Made by a program: the position numbers and the translations under genes. DNA of 64,000 nucleotides, taken from Methylobacter sp. Its GTDB lineage: Bacteria > Pseudomonadota > Gammaproteobacteria > Methylococcales > Methylomonadaceae. The number at the start of each line of letters is the position of its first letter. Position 1 is the first letter of the stretch. The notes beneath the pieces are model-generated. The model saw only the letters and a program-made list of their open reading frames with translations. It was not told the DNA's origin and did no database searches. Below, in pieces: positions 982 to 41,483 of this stretch. Where the stretch lies: positions 62,001-126,000 of the forward strand of contig NZ_SCTW01000008.1 in the NCBI RefSeq assembly GCF_004322395.1, in the 5' to 3' direction.

Positions 982-1090
982 TTCACCACGAACGACTGCA
1001 TGGATGCAGGAGGTAGAGCAACGCATGGAGCAGTTACCGAGACACGAAGGACACGAAATTTTGTTTCTTCGTGTCTTCGTGGTGAGTAAA
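982..1090. repeat. Dispersed palindromic repeat (cacgaag family) with a GGTAGAGCA core
   Basis: The rimO-nuclease gap holds a short element. Its outer parts are inversely related: the left flank reads ttcaccacgaa and the right flank ttcgtgtcttcgtggtga. Its core, GGATGCAGGAGGTAGAGCA followed by CGCATGGAGCAGTTACCGA, recurs with changes near 24112-24172 and in degenerate form near 24968-24999. It looks like a REP or MITE-type intergenic repeat with no coding capacity. Confidence 0.6.
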
Positions 1091-1993: not shown

Positions 1994-3301
1994 CTATTCA
2001 GAAATATCGGGCGGTACGGCGACTGTTGCTACATCAATATAGTCGAACGCATCATTAAGCTTTTGCATATCCAATTCATTTTCCCATTTTGCAGCAACCA
2101 CGGTGGCAACTCCGTTGCCGATAAGATTGGTCAACGCGCGGGCTTCGGACATGAAGCGATCGATACCCAAGATAAGCGCAAGCCCTGCGACAGGAATGGC
2201 CGGAATAACTGAGAGTGTTGCCGCAAGAGTAATAAAACCGCTCCCGGTTACGCCGGCAGCGCCTTTCGAGGTGAGCAGCAGCACGCCAAGCAAGGTCAGC
2301 TCCTGCGTCATTGTCAGAGCAGTATTGGTCGCCTGAGCGACAAAAACAGCGGCCATCGCAAGATAAATTGAGGTACCGTCAAGGTTAAATGAATAGCCGG
2401 TCGGAATAACCAAACCGACAACGGACTTGGAACAACCCATTTTTTCCAGCTTGATCATGATTCGGGGCAGCACCGATTCAGAGGACGAAGTGCCTAACAC
2501 GATAAGCAGCTCGTCCTTGATATAAACGATAAATTTGATGATGCTGAAACCAGTAAACCTGGCGATCAATCCGAGCACGATAAAAATGAACAGCAGACAG
2601 GTCAGATAAAAGCTGCCCATTAAACTTGCCAACGGCACCAGCGACGCAACGCCGTATTTGCCGATGGTAAACGCCATGGAACCGAAGGCTCCAATCGGCG
2701 CCAATTTCATAATGGTTTCTATTATGCCGAACAATACGTGCGAAATCTTGCTGATGAACACAGTCACTTCCGCTCCCGTCTCTTTCATCGCGGCCAGCGA
2801 AAAGCCAAACAACAACGAAAACAACAATACCTGCAATATATCGCCCTTGGCAAAGGCATCCACTACGCTGACAGGGATGATATTTAGCAAGAAATCGACC
2901 GTGTTTTGCGTTTTTGCCGTATCGGTATAAGCCATAAGGCTTTTAGTATCCAGCATGCTTGCATCGACATTCATGCCAGCCCCAGGTTGAATGACATGCA
3001 CTACAAGCAGTCCGATAACCAGTGCCAGCGTACTCACGACTTCAAAATAGAGCAGCGCCTTAATGCCGACACGGCCGACCTTGTCCAGCTCCCGCATACC
3101 TGCAATTCCATTTACCACGGTACAGAAGATGATAGGTGCGATGATCATTTTAATCAGTTTGATGAAGCCGTCACCGAGCGGCTTCATCGCAACACCGGTT
3201 TCAGGGTAGAAATAGCCGAGCAAAATGCCGATGCCAATGGCGGTAAGGACTTGGAAATACAGATGTTGATAATGTTTTTTAGCTGCGTAAACGGTTTGCA
3301 C
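1994..3301 (-). CDS. dctA: DctA-type dicarboxylate:cation symporter
   Basis: This 435-residue multi-span protein belongs to the DAACS family. It has the serine-rich re-entrant loop motif [11 protein letters not shown] and the substrate/cation motif [10 protein letters not shown], followed by [10 protein letters not shown]. These motifs place it among aerobic C4-dicarboxylate importers of the DctA type. A glutamate or other dicarboxylate specificity cannot be excluded from sequence alone. It is monocistronic. A 360-bp gap upstream probably holds its promoter. Confidence 0.88.
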
Positions 3302-24056: not shown

Positions 24057-24285
24057 ATATGCATCAAGCTAAGACATAAAACTATGAAGAACATGAAGTT
24101 CATGAACGACTTGGATGTAGGAGGTAGAGCACCAACAGTAGGCGCTTTAGGCGGCGTATGGAGCGGTTTCCGAAAAAAAACGAGGGTAAAACTTCGTGTC
24201 CTTCATGTTCTTCATGGTTTATTAATCACAAACTTACACCTTACTGATTGGTTATACTGACTTTTTTGCTTAGCTTGATGCATAT
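24057..24285. mobile_element. 229-bp MITE-like element with 17-bp terminal inverted repeats
   Basis: Perfect terminal inverted repeats ATATGCATCAAGCTAAG (24057-24073) and CTTAGCTTGATGCATAT (24269-24285) bound the element. The 12-mer GGTTACAAACCC occurs in direct orientation at both sides (24045-24056 and 24287-24298), like a target duplication. Inside are a second inverted pair (ATGAAGAACATGAAG near 24083 and CTTCATGTTCTTCAT near 24204) and the GGTAGAGCA core shared with 982-1090. It has no coding capacity, so any transposase would act in trans. Confidence 0.65.
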
Positions 24286-27339: not shown

Positions 27340-28044
27340 TTACAAACTCTGCCGAATGGATTGAATAGTCGCTTCAGTCAACGGCTGTCTTCTATGATCA
27401 AGTACCACGCCGTCCAATTTAGCGGCCAGCAAGTTAATTGTTTCTATATAGTCTTCAAAAACGGCCGGTGCATCGTCCAACGCTTCGGGTTGCATAAAAA
27501 ATACGATGCCGGGGCAGTAAAACTGGTCTAAGTCCTTATCCGGGAAAGTGCCCGGCTCTACAATACAAGCCACACCAAAATCGACAAGCCGGTTATCGTC
27601 CAGGCGCTCGAAAATTTTCAAACTGCCGTATTCCAGCCCGACCATTTCAAAGGCTTCAACCAAATCGGCGCCGTTAAAATCATCGTCCGTCCTAGTGATA
27701 ATGCTGAACTGGATAATCGCCGGTGCGGCTGCGCGTGGCGGCGGATCTACGTCGTCATCATGCTCATAGTAGTCGTCGTCAGCATCTTCATCATAATATC
27801 GATCCGATCTGTCATGATTATGCTGAGCACCGGCATTACTTCTAGCCGCTCCTACTGGAATAACATCAAACTCGCCCCTTCTCTCCATGATGGAATCATC
27901 GGCATAGTCATTCTCATCGTCACCGTAAAATTCCATATCTTGCTGCGCTTTCTTATCTTTTATATAAGCCCAGACTAACATGCCAATGACTACAACCATG
28001 CCGGTTGCAATAATTACAATTCTTAAGATTTCTTTATCCATCAC
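27340..28044 (-). CDS. zipA: Cell division protein ZipA
   Basis: This 234-residue protein has an N-terminal membrane helix (about 5-26, ILRIVIIATGMVVVIGMLVW), a short highly acidic linker (for example YYDEDADDDYYEHDDD, about 83-98) and a C-terminal ZipA domain (about 110-232) that binds the FtsZ tail. The linker is shorter than the Pro/Gln-rich one of E. coli. The start codon overlaps the smc stop by four bases, so the two are translationally coupled. Confidence 0.9.
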   Translation of the reverse strand: MMDKEILRIVIIATGMVVVIGMLVWAYIKDKKAQQDMEFYGDDENDYADDSIMERRGEFDVIPVGAARSNAGAQHNHDRSDRYYDEDADDDYYEHDDDVDPPPRAAAPAIIQFSIITRTDDDFNGADLVEAFEMVGLEYGSLKIFERLDDNRLVDFGVACIVEPGTFPDKDLDQFYCPGIVFFMQPEALDDAPAVFEDYIETINLLAAKLDGVVLDHRRQPLTEATIQSIRQSL

Positions 28045-31000
28045 ATTTCCGCCAGACTCACTGCTTCTTCAATATCAACTGCGACCATCCGGGACACGCC
28101 CGGCTCTTTCATAGTAACACCTGCCAGCTGTTTTGCAATTTCCATCGTCACTTTGTTATGGGATATATACAAAAACTGTACCGATGCCGACATTTCTTCG
28201 ACCATTTTTGAAAACCGTCCAACGTTTGCATCATCCAACGGAGCATCGACCTCGTCCAGCAAACAAAAAGGCGCCGGATTGAGCTCGAAAATCGAGAATA
28301 CCAAGGCTACCGCTGTTAATGCTTTCTCTCCACCTGACAATAAATGTATCGAGCTATTCTTCTTACCGGGAGGTCTGGCAATAATATTTACGCCCGATTC
28401 CAGCTCGTCTTGCTCGGTCAATTCCAAATAAGCATGACCGCCGCCGAATAACTTGGGAAATTTCTCCTGCAAACCAGAGTTTATTTTATCGAATGTTTCC
28501 CTAAAACGCAGCCGACTTTCTTTATCAATCTGACTGATCGCCTGATCCAGGGTCTGCAAGGCCTCGATTAAATCGGCATGTTGTTCGTTAAGAAACTCCA
28601 TCCGCTCGGACTGCGCCTTGAATTCCTCTATCGCAGTCAGGTTAATAGTACCTAATCTTTCGATTTGAGCCAATAAATCGTCTACCGTTCTTTTCCAGCT
28701 GTGTTCCTCGGCCTGTTCCGGCAAGTTTTGCAGCACCGTCTCGACATCGGCGTCGATTTCTTTAAGCTGCTCGTTGACGGTTTGCTGGCGAACCTTGCTT
28801 TCCTGTAGCTCAAAACGAATCGTATCCAGCGCTTCTTTTTGCTTTTCCAAAGCCCGTTGAACCCGGATATGTTCTTCGGATAGCTGGGTTATCTCAGCTT
28901 CAAGGTCTTCCTGAAGCTGGCGCTGTTTTTTCAGGCGTATTTCCAGTTGTTCCTTATCGAGAAGCATCTGCTCCAGCTGCTTTTTCTCTTGATCCATCGG
29001 CGTCAGCGTTTGGTTCAGGTTAAGCTCCAGCTCCGCGATGCGTTCAATCGATTGTTGATGTTGCAGTTGTAACCGCTCCAGCTGTTTGCCGGTTAATGTT
29101 TCGGATGACCGTAACGACTCGATCTGCGACTTCAGACTGAACACTTGTTGCCTGGCTTCATTGGCGGATTGATCGATACGCTGTTGCTGCGATTGCAAGT
29201 CCTGGTTCGATGCTTCCAGAGTTTGCTTTTTTTGCTCCTGCTCGGCCATGATCTGTTCGGCCTGTTCCTGCAACATTTGCGACTCGGCGATAGTCTCGGC
29301 ATTTTCAGCGGTTTCTCGGCTTATCTCTTCAATATCGTTACTGACCTGTTCCAGACGGCGCTGCTGATGTTCCAGCTTGGCCGAACGCGCGCTAAATTCA
29401 GCGCTTTTTACCGACAGTTCAGCGCCCAGGCTTTTGTCTTGTTGCTGTATCGATTCACGCGTGGCTTCTGCGTCTTTCAAGCCGGTTTCGGCTGTTTCAA
29501 GCTGGTCTTCAAATGTTTCAATTTCGACGTGTAGATCTTCCTGCCGCTGTTTTAACAGACGCAATTCTTTTTCGCGCTGCAACACGCCGGTTTTACTGTC
29601 TTTGGCACGGATTATTTTTATCCAGCCTGAGCCGAACCAAGTGCCGTCCAGGGTGATGACCGATTCATGGGGCTTTAATTGGGCGGATAAAGTTCTTGCT
29701 GTTTCCGCATCCTCGACGCAGTAGACTCCGGCCAGTAAGTTGCTCAAATCCCATGGCGCTTTTACTTTGTCCAGCAGCTTCGGAGCATGTGCTCCTTCTC
29801 CCTCAGGGAGAAGACCGGGATGAGGGGATTCAAATAAGTTTTCTTCCTTATTTTGATTTCCCCTCACCCAACCCTCTCCCTCTGGAGAGGGCTTTGCGCT
29901 GCTCAAGCCGACGCCAGTCTCAACCAGCATCAACGATTCATCCGTCAAACGCTGCAAGCCCGGAATAATCTGATCGGCGCTTTCTAAACAAATCGCCTCA
30001 AGATAACTGCCCAAAACCGTTTCAATTGCAGTGTCCCAACCTGCTTGCACGTCCAGAAACTCGGCAAGCCGCCGATTTTCAACCAAATCCACGGACTCCA
30101 ACCACGCGCTCAGGTGTTTATTGTCCTTACCCATCGCATGCTGCTGCAATAATTCCAACGAAGTGATTTTTCCTTTGACGCTTTGCATTTCCGAACGGCG
30201 GGTATGCAGATCGTCATGGTACTGTTTGACCTGTTGCCGCTGTTCGCGTATCTGCTGATGCAGATCTTCAAGCCGCTGATGAAACTCGGCGCGTTGCATC
30301 TCGATGATCTCGATGCCGGCTTCCAACGATTCAATCTCGCTTTGCAAATCGCTGGATTCCAGCTCATCGCGCTCACTGAGCAATTTATCCAGACGGATTT
30401 GCAACTGGCGATTCTGGTTTTCCAACTGCGCGGTTTTTACCCGCTGCACTTCGGACTGTTCCTTATAGCTCGAGGTGGTCGTGCGATACGCTTCCCATTG
30501 CTCCTGCCAAGAACTTTTTTGCTGCTGCACTTCTTGTTGGTTATATAAAACGTCTTCCTGCCTTTCTTCGGCGACAATTAACGCTTCTTCCGCTTCAAAC
30601 AAAGACTGTCTGATTTCTTCCAATTGCTGCGTATCGGCTTCGAGTTCTTTTAACGACTCGGCTGCCTGTTGACGCAGACGGTTAATTTCAATGGCGGTTT
30701 GTTCGCGGCTGCTTTCGCTGTGTTTGATGGTTTGTTCAAGGCCGCTGACTTCGGCGACAATCTGGTAGTAATCGCCCTGAAAATTGTTGGTTTGTTGCTG
30801 CTGGGTTTTATGCTCGGCGCGCTTGGCTTCGATGTTGTTATCGATGTCCCGCAGCTCGACAAACAAGCGGTTATGCTCATGAGCTACTTCCTGCAATTTT
30901 TCATCCAGTTGCTTCGCGGCCTGATGATAAGTGTTCCAGCGCATTGCCAGCAGTTCCAGCCGATACTGGCGTTCCTGCTTTTTAAGCTCGGTATATTTTT

Positions 31001-31646
31001 CGGCTTTTTCGGCTTGTTTTTGCAGATGCCTGATTTGCTTTTCAACTTCGTCGCGCAAATCGTCAAGCCGCTCCAGATTCTCACGGGTATGCTTCATCCG
31101 GGTTTCGGTTTCACTACGGCGTTCTTTGTATTTAGATACGCCCGCGGCTTCTTCGATATGAACTCTTAAATCCTCCGGCTTGGCTTCGACCATACGGGAA
31201 ATCGTGCCCTGCTCGATGATCGCATAACTTCTTGACCCTAAACCGGTGCCCAGAAAAATGTCGGTAATATCTTTACGGCGGCAGCGCGACCCATTCAGCA
31301 TAAACACCGATGTACCGTCGCGGCTGACCTGCCGCTTAATCGCAATAGTATCGTACTGCGAATATTCGCCGCCCAGCTTACCTTCGCTATTATTGAAAAC
31401 CAACTCGACGGAAGCCGTGCTGACCGGTTTGCGTCCCGATGAACCGTTAAAGATCACGTCGGCCATACTGCCGCCGCGCAAATGCTTGGCGGAGCTTTCG
31501 CCCATCACCCAGCGCACAGCATCGATAATATTGGATTTGCCGCAGCCGTTAGGCCCGACGATGGCAGTCAGATTACCGCTAATCGGTATGACTGTTTGAT
31601 CAACAAAGGATTTGAAACCCGAAAGCTTGATTTTTTCCAGTTTCAT
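28041..31646 (-). CDS. smc: Chromosome segregation ATPase SMC with repeat-derived insert
   Basis: This 1201-residue SMC protein has a Walker A GPNGCGKSNIIDAVRWVMG at the N-terminus, long coiled coils, a hinge near 520-690, and a C-terminal signature LLSGGEKALTAVALVF with Walker B FCLLDEVDAPLDD. It condenses and separates chromosomes. Residues about 580-619 (for example KPSPEGEGWVRGN and SPHPGLLPEGEGA) are foreign to the family. They are encoded by a palindromic intergenic-type repeat at 29790-29892 that is translated in frame. The surrounding hinge sequence reads on without a break. Confidence 0.95.
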   Translation of the reverse strand: MKLEKIKLSGFKSFVDQTVIPISGNLTAIVGPNGCGKSNIIDAVRWVMGESSAKHLRGGSMADVIFNGSSGRKPVSTASVELVFNNSEGKLGGEYSQYDTIAIKRQVSRDGTSVFMLNGSRCRRKDITDIFLGTGLGSRSYAIIEQGTISRMVEAKPEDLRVHIEEAAGVSKYKERRSETETRMKHTRENLERLDDLRDEVEKQIRHLQKQAEKAEKYTELKKQERQYRLELLAMRWNTYHQAAKQLDEKLQEVAHEHNRLFVELRDIDNNIEAKRAEHKTQQQQTNNFQGDYYQIVAEVSGLEQTIKHSESSREQTAIEINRLRQQAAESLKELEADTQQLEEIRQSLFEAEEALIVAEERQEDVLYNQQEVQQQKSSWQEQWEAYRTTTSSYKEQSEVQRVKTAQLENQNRQLQIRLDKLLSERDELESSDLQSEIESLEAGIEIIEMQRAEFHQRLEDLHQQIREQRQQVKQYHDDLHTRRSEMQSVKGKITSLELLQQHAMGKDNKHLSAWLESVDLVENRRLAEFLDVQAGWDTAIETVLGSYLEAICLESADQIIPGLQRLTDESLMLVETGVGLSSAKPSPEGEGWVRGNQNKEENLFESPHPGLLPEGEGAHAPKLLDKVKAPWDLSNLLAGVYCVEDAETARTLSAQLKPHESVITLDGTWFGSGWIKIIRAKDSKTGVLQREKELRLLKQRQEDLHVEIETFEDQLETAETGLKDAEATRESIQQQDKSLGAELSVKSAEFSARSAKLEHQQRRLEQVSNDIEEISRETAENAETIAESQMLQEQAEQIMAEQEQKKQTLEASNQDLQSQQQRIDQSANEARQQVFSLKSQIESLRSSETLTGKQLERLQLQHQQSIERIAELELNLNQTLTPMDQEKKQLEQMLLDKEQLEIRLKKQRQLQEDLEAEITQLSEEHIRVQRALEKQKEALDTIRFELQESKVRQQTVNEQLKEIDADVETVLQNLPEQAEEHSWKRTVDDLLAQIERLGTINLTAIEEFKAQSERMEFLNEQHADLIEALQTLDQAISQIDKESRLRFRETFDKINSGLQEKFPKLFGGGHAYLELTEQDELESGVNIIARPPGKKNSSIHLLSGGEKALTAVALVFSIFELNPAPFCLLDEVDAPLDDANVGRFSKMVEEMSASVQFLYISHNKVTMEIAKQLAGVTMKEPGVSRMVAVDIEEAVSLAEM
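29790..29892. repeat. Palindromic repeat inserted in frame within smc
   Basis: Three self-complementary parts lie inside the gene: CTTCTCCCTCAGGGAGAAG (29794-29812), the inverted pair TGAGGGGA (29821-29828) / TCCCCTCA (29859-29866), and CCCTCTCCCTCTGGAGAGGG (29872-29891). This is the form of dispersed intergenic palindromes. It adds about 38 codons without a stop in the smc reading frame. Confidence 0.75.
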
Positions 31647-41435: not shown

Positions 41436-41483
41436 ATGGAGTGCAAGCTTCGCTTGTGCTGGCGCAGGCGAAGCCTGCACTCC
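41436..41483. repeat. GGAGTGCAAGCTTCGC inverted repeat
   Basis: Arms GGAGTGCAAGCTTCGC and GCGAAGCCTGCACTCC differ at one position and enclose a 14-nt loop. The repeat lies just after the gnnB stop. It could act as a transcription stop or mRNA stabiliser between gnnB and lpxB. Confidence 0.65.

Follow-up and report, generated by a model that had tools for sequence, protein, structure and literature searches.

A palindromic repeat in the smc hinge linker of Methylobacter, probably a decayed MITE whose other copies share one reading frame in unrelated genes

Introduction

The RPEs of Rickettsia are repeats that lie in frame in genes, and a similar route is regarded as conceivable in other prokaryotes in the review PMC10969869. 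REPs occur within conserved genes, including recBCD, and two Xanthomonas species carry different REPs at about the same recB site (Di Nocera et al. 2013, PMC3733652). The ERIC/RU sequences are MITE-like repeats whose ORFs can be fused in frame to other ORFs (Delihas 2007, PMC2759123). The REPs reported within ORFs in a number of species, together with the ERIC-type fusions, make too strong the statement, in the initial annotation of the locus studied here, that in-frame repeat insertions are rare outside Rickettsia.

The element reported here, the PEGEG MITE of Methylobacter, resembles the RPEs as these are described in the review PMC10969869: it is ~150 bp long, palindromic, dispersed and in frame in unrelated genes, where it encodes a conserved peptide. 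The likeness is one by description, and the element differs from RPEs in its host (a methanotroph, not an intracellular bacterium), in its clear 18-bp terminal inverted repeats (TIRs) and 11-bp target duplications, and in the occupation of the same protein linker by several unrelated repeat families. REPs are 20–40 bp long and GTAG/CGTC-tagged, those of the GTAG type often lying near genes for RAYTs (REP-associated tyrosine transposases; PMC3733652), in contrast to a TIR element of ~154 bp; ERIC/RU use more than one frame and many of their fused loci are small (PMC2759123), whereas here a single frame is used, often in large conserved enzymes. The string “PSPEGEG” had no occurrence in the open-licence literature searched, where no title among the matches listed dealt with in-frame repeats in Methylobacter (a term that also matches Methylobacterium), and “Methylo” does not occur in the main text of PMC3733652. 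The principle is known already; what this case adds is a new family in a new genus, evidence of TIRs and target duplications within genes, and linker sites used by several repeat families.

The smc insert

The window, by which we mean the whole stretch of 64,000 nucleotides that was analysed, belongs to a 4.59-Mb genome assembled into 157 contigs (G000) whose nearest named relatives by SMC sequence are Methylobacter. Its smc gene is a stop-free ORF of 1201 aa, in which three hairpins share one stop-free frame between the two halves of the SMC hinge domain (Table 1). These had been annotated initially as three nested palindromes at positions 29790–29892 that add about 38 residues. Three hairpins are indeed present, side by side rather than strictly nested, with one arm pair around an A/T-rich loop. 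The interval corresponds to the core of a repeat that extends further in the profile search and whose complete copies elsewhere are mostly 154 bp long with TIRs. The figure of 38 residues also describes roughly the core: the linker between the flanks ..VET and LLDKV.. has 46 residues here against 15–16 in the congeners G009, G010 and G013, which retain the ancestral state, and the net gain is only 30–31 residues because the old linker is gone. The proposed alignment with relatives gave a length difference but not a base-by-base gap, since no carrier retains the ancestral linker.

Table 1. Features of the smc gene and its insert (positions in the window).
Feature	Position	Strand	Basis
smc, host gene	28041..31646	-	ORF; NCBIfam TIGR02168 SMC_prok_B, 1041 bits (cut-off 567)
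Hinge linker replaced by element, SMC residues 578–623 (46 aa)	29778..29915	-	SMC alignments
Profile match to MITE in smc	29778–29919	-	Profile search
Decayed left end of element, GGCGTCGGCTTGAGCAGCGCAAAG; TIR residues VDLSSAK changed to VGLSSAK	29892..29915	-	
Hairpin 1, arms 29872–29879 and 29884–29891 (CCCTCTCC/GGAGAGGG)	29872..29891	none	
Hairpin 2, arms 29818–29828 and 29859–29869, A/T-rich loop between	29818..29869	none	
Hairpin 3, arms 29795–29803 and 29805–29813 (CTTCTCCCT/AGGGAGAAG)	29795..29813	none	
Decayed right end, GCACATGCTCCGAAG, residues AHAPK; canonical TIR CTTAAGTCAACAGCATTG lost	29778..29792	-	

RNA of the insert strand is predicted to fold at -75.2 kcal/mol, compared to -45.2 ± 4 for 200 shuffled sequences, none of which was as low (z -7.5). 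No Rfam match was found in 29400–30300. The smc stretch has 27 matches in the genome at E ≤ 0.001, a count that includes the smc copy and, for some single copies, more than one piece. The open ORF and these matches bear out the initial view of a dispersed repeat read in frame in smc, whose other genomic copies the suggested search did find. The smc copy is the sole copy of the PEGEG MITE in the window; it has degenerate TIRs and lacks a target duplication. Short matches to two other repeats were seen at window positions 1002–1021, 24113–24131 and 41464–41478, outside any ORF of at least 80 aa. One of the carriers is a named strain, M. tundripaludum OWC-G53F (L103), in which translation of the smc insert would yield GNQNKENSLFESPHPSLLPQGEGAH.

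Structure of the complete element

Many copies, when aligned with their flanks, run past the 103 bp of the initial annotation into TIRs. Complete copies are most commonly 154 bp long (155 bp in three, longer where modules were added). Their palindromes are enclosed by 18-bp TIRs (CAATGCTGTTGACTTAAG/CTTAAGTCAACAGCATTG or close variants), and 11-bp target duplications with 0–1 mismatch flank them. The duplication is perfect at L020, L196 and L222 and has one mismatch at L191, L231, L238, L016, L241, L014 (the same as L245), L233, L264 and a few more loci. Such duplications are found in ORFs (topB at L231, a SelD-like ORF at L191, a TPR/cytochrome protein at L014/L245, as well as L233 and L264) and outside long ORFs (L196, L222, L020, L238, L016 and others). 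Comparison of the 11-bp flanks revealed none at smc or at certain other loci, among them L202, L211, L236 and L237. The element is short, has no transposase coding capacity and carries TIRs and a target duplication, which are the attributes of a MITE.

IS4-family MITEs have TIRs of ~18 bp and target duplications of ~10–13 bp. The present element is like them in both lengths, from which we take its putative transposase to be IS4-like, and unlike them in that no transposase or parent element was found here. The enzyme is only presumed because searches with TIR patterns in G000, G001, G006, G018 and G019 yielded no autonomous partner with matching TIRs. No transposase-sized element was present in 20 stretches around TIRs either, although draft assemblies may miss one; in both the pattern searches and these stretches convergent TIR pairs lay only ~50–270 bp apart. 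Two whole MITEs spaced by 3 kb on contig 84 of G000 enclose a PAS-GGDEF-EAL gene and no transposase. Three other G000 loci (L265, L266 and L267, on contigs C73, C61 and C96) have similar TIRs around other interiors and measure 104–135 bp.

Reading frame and host genes

The survey comprised 66 near-full copies, assigned by hand to an in-ORF (23) or an outside (43) class, from places included at roughly E ≤ 1e-9 in the DNA searches; short fragments and the split nested copies L031 and L233 were left out, and L021 and L023 were dropped as second halves of L014 and L020. Of the 56 near-full copies in the six DNA-searched genomes (G000, G018, G019, G009, G012 and G008), 18 lie in frame within an ORF, while the loci of G001, G006 and G021 and two further ones were selected since an open frame had already been seen. 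All 23 in-ORF copies use one frame, the PEGEG frame, whose peptide is N(A/T)VDLSxxKPSPEGEGWVRGNQNKExxLFxxPHPxLLPEGEGAxxLKSTVL or a variant. For 21 of them a single frame out of the six is open, counting L226 and L245, which the script scored on the opposite strand owing to the palindrome. Among the 43 outside copies, 20 have no open frame and nine have the PEGEG frame open. Members of this class include L009, L020 and L210, which overlap an ORF of at least 150 aa in another frame (the ORFs at the first two have no Pfam family; that at the third resembles an amine oxidase, and the overlap is confined to its N-terminal edge, ahead of the domain), as well as L229 (KdpC) and L240 (YfiR-like), where the PEGEG frame is at the N side of the ORF.

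A complete copy of the commonest length and its target duplication sum to 165 nt (154+11), or 55 codons, and insertion therefore keeps the reading phase. Length plus 11 is divisible by three in 11 of 11 in-ORF copies with both TIRs, including L014, L233 and L264, which were moved to the in-ORF class for this count after being scored otherwise, versus nine of 21 others holding the core; the 11/11 is partly circular because an ORF must stay open to be counted. Survivorship by itself would suffice to explain the frame bias, as five of the six orientation and phase choices would break the gene. Variants within genes swap or add hairpin modules with the frame intact (TTAxMQEVEQRxEQLP; IMPDSPVRHPAGECKSAPGGF).

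The in-ORF copies reside in unrelated, mostly conserved genes in one conserved frame, with 23 near-full examples, which qualifies the element as a protein-coding palindromic repeat. A Pfam family at E ≤ 1e-5 was assigned to 18 of the 19 host proteins scanned, L202 being the exception. Ten of 20 host proteins, SMC included, pass a curated NCBIfam cut-off (SMC, CtaD, CobN, RecC, HypF, Nit6803 nitrilase, hydrogenase cytochrome b, RlmKL, TopB and NifE); L226 and L247 gave no NCBIfam family. Further hosts are hsdM, NfeD, RecD, GspH and the TPR/cytochrome protein. The insertion lies within the profile or between domains in SMC, CobN, HypF, TopB, a PKS dehydratase, RlmKL (between its two methyltransferases) and the SelD-like ORF, which with 222 aa and a score below the NCBIfam cut-off may be a gene fragment; half copies have such positions in RecC and a GlmM-like mutase. 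NifE of G006, nitrilase, NfeD and HsdM carry it near an end; in NfeD this is the C side, the ORF terminating within the element, and the NifE-like ORF of G019 (L195) has a half copy at its end. In CtaD, RecD, hydrogenase cytochrome b, GspH and the TPR/cytochrome protein it is on the N side, where the true start may be downstream of the element, starts being doubtful there because they were assigned mechanically.

Several additional observations concern individual loci and genomes. In hypF of G018 (L213:4193–4234) an extra short hairpin piece occupies another frame of the same ORF (PLTPTLSLGERG). The MITE in topB of G001 (L231, ~3127–3165) adjoins another piece of repeat within this ORF (QGEGRGEG) and may have landed in an older insert. 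At L214 (G018:C17) the element is in frame within an 8718-aa open frame. G001, whose smc has the ancestral linker, gave at least 122 peptide matches (150 of 216 candidates scored), the highest number of the genus genomes, and most of those listed have an in-frame stop. Of 201 genomes sampled from the order, the genus itself among them, 26 had peptide matches at E ≤ 1e-6; beyond the genus, matches lying in stop-free long frames were seen in G145 (1232 aa), G027 (3098 aa), G202 (751 aa), G144 (518 aa) and G036 (874 and 535 aa).

The SMC and CobN linkers across species

Several repeat families have landed in the smc linker, a point that the initial annotation had missed. Among the 22 same-genus SMCs readable at the linker (that of G017 is split), the MITE is present in four species (G000, G006, G018 and G019), another palindrome (TGTGGGGGCGAC.., TGTGGGGGCGACTTCAGTCGCC...) in seven (G002, G007, G008, G011, G012, G015 and G021) and a third repeat (TGCAGGAGG..) in one (G022), while ten have the ancestral linker. 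The third repeat is also nested in the MITE of G006. Both additional repeats are dispersed: with both palindrome strands counted, the second occurs at 26–83 places in six of its seven carriers and at three in G011, and the third at 49, 29 and 42 places in G000, G022 and G006, numbers that are lower bounds in some genomes, where there were more candidates than scored. The SMC loop is variable across Methylococcales. Residues of the MITE were found in no SMC examined outside the genus, which leaves unchallenged the initial view that they are an insertion rather than a shared feature of other genera.

The CobN linker (L296–L311, reference residues ~889–965) is a second site with different palindromic repeats. 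The 16 CobN sequences aligned comprise two with the MITE, eight with GGTTCCCACG-type repeats (one degenerate) and four with a short linker (G003, G007, G011 and G015), others having further palindromes. GTTCCCACGC was found in 59 distinct contexts in the loci examined, against none for the reversed control. In the same proteins, residues ~660–750 form a very His/Asp-rich stretch whose length varies strongly within the genus.

An AlphaFold2 model built from 47 hinge sequences (mean pLDDT 79.1, pTM 0.69) has hinge-core blocks with pLDDT of 87–95, or 76–89 towards the C-terminal end, and pLDDT below 50 nearly throughout the insert (fragment residues 88–120); in this model the hinge folds around a disordered insert. 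Solved structures were not retrieved by sequence with a single query and only weakly with a profile. The model matches solved SMC hinges in a fold search (best 5h69, E 4.5e-9, TM 0.55, rmsd 9.7), the high rmsd being expected because of the long loose loop. Together with the other in-frame copies, the predicted folded hinge and disordered insert agree with the RPE-like insertion into a tolerant hinge loop that was originally suggested. The pN/pS ratio is 0.44–1.70 in the insert, which has ~23–26 synonymous sites, against 0.10–0.16 in its flanks, and the annotated near-neutrality is plausible as far as no amino-acid constraint is detectable.

Origin of the copies in smc

Grouping of the carriers as one clade is rejected on the whole smc gene (4 changes; AU p 3.1e-5; tree without four distant species) and on ligA (AU p 4.5e-5; G003, whose best match is 30% identical, left out), and is not rejected on 300 bp on each side of the insert (p 0.124; trees without seven species). 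L050, which has no linker, was excluded from the smc alignments. The ligA matches of G005 and G016 (L281 and L286) contain one in-frame stop each.

Synonymous divergence is lower in the insert than in the rest of the gene: 0.09–0.22 versus 0.37–0.50 in smc (six non-independent pairs; Fisher p 0.0002 to 0.05), 0.13 versus 0.43 in cobN (L296/L297; p 0.0024) and 0.04 versus 0.26 in hsdM (L211/L236; p 0.013), the insert values resting on 22–23 synonymous sites per pair. Low values are also seen where the copies compared share their insertion site. The near-neutral reading adopted here does not explain this difference, to which insertion on several occasions, recombination of short tracts, conversion by copies at other loci and hairpin constraint could each contribute. 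With eroded TIRs, no target duplication, a lost linker and four carrier species, the initial description of the smc insertion as recent is not supported. The lower synonymous divergence of the insert points the other way and could reflect later gains or homogenisation at the DNA level.

Discussion

We estimate at roughly 85% the probability that a non-autonomous transposable element, the PEGEG MITE of Methylobacter, left the smc stretch as one of its copies, now decayed, and that its in-frame copies are kept. A transposase acting in trans, presumably IS4-like, would insert the MITE into genes and intergenic DNA alike, and an insertion of 165 nt would preserve the phase. Because stops usually block at least five of the six frames, only one orientation and phase would survive in needed genes, and selection would retain such copies in tolerant linkers. 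In-gene copies are predicted to be translated into ~51–55 residues, rich in Pro, Gly and Glu, that form a disordered linker or tail. The dispersed repeat that occupies the smc linker differs from one group of species to another.

That the stretch is instead a native variable SMC loop with chance palindromes, and no insertion, finds some echo in the variation of this loop across Methylococcales; the 27 genome matches, the z of -7.5 and the occurrence of these residues in frame in proteins unrelated to SMC leave this reading next to no credibility. It is very improbable that the repeat is a REP mobilised by a RAYT rather than a TIR MITE moved by a DDE transposase. The core is rich in hairpins, the genome has seven Y1_Tnp (PF01797) matches and REPs inside ORFs are described in PMC3733652, but the element is next to Y1_Tnp at none of the seven loci of G000 (up to 1.5 kb on each side, less at contig ends). 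Complete copies, moreover, have 18-bp TIRs and 11-bp target duplications. RAYT elements are not known for such ends and duplications. Retention of the insert for a function, its hairpins or acidic Pro/Gly-rich loop tuning smc translation or hinge behaviour, would account for the low synonymous divergence of the inserts in smc, cobN and hsdM and for the very stable RNA fold, and appears improbable to us in view of the insert pN/pS, the absence of the MITE from the smc linker in 18 of 22 species (eight of which have other repeats there) and the finding of the same peptide in unrelated proteins; low synonymous divergence over so few sites fits later gain or gene conversion as well. A stronger version of the preferred reading, according to which the MITE is built for translation as a phase-preserving linker cassette that colonises coding DNA, draws on the 55 codons of its commonest length plus target duplication, the one frame open from TIR to TIR and module swaps in multiples of three, and seems to us unlikely.

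A serious competitor, to which we give somewhat less than an even chance, concerns the history of the MITE in smc and would not alter the nature of the element: one old insertion would have spread between Methylobacter species by short-tract recombination, with no need for repeated insertion. Junctions are alike among the MITE carriers, and the right junctions of G000, G018 and G006 have common non-canonical TIR changes (GCTCCGAAG, GTTCCGATG, GCTTCGAGC) before CTGCTGG/TTGCTGG, this part of the insert being lost in G019. The junctions of the second palindrome are nearly identical in its seven carriers, the smc and ligA trees conflict over G019, and by bit score the near-full copy nearest to the window's insert is the smc insert of G018 (172, next 170; split G006 copy not compared). 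By percent identity, however, the window's insert is no closer to that of G018 (93.0% over a longer stretch) than to the copies at other loci L192 (94.5%) and L211 (94.3%), the G019 insert is closer to copies at other loci, and 150-bp windows beside the insert display no consistent rise in identity between carriers.

If the MITE were indeed a cassette built for translation, flexible linkers of essential bacterial proteins would be steadily rewritten by resident repeats, and those of the SMC hinge and of CobN would be places where repeats land time and again. Rickettsia provides the best-known protein-coding palindromes (review PMC10969869), and a methanotroph genus shows the same habit. The marks of transposition are still readable in topB, where the TIRs and an 11-bp target duplication with one mismatch are preserved, so that the insertion mechanism and the selection filter can be separated. 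The several states of the smc linker in related species constitute a natural experiment on the freedom of the SMC hinge linker.
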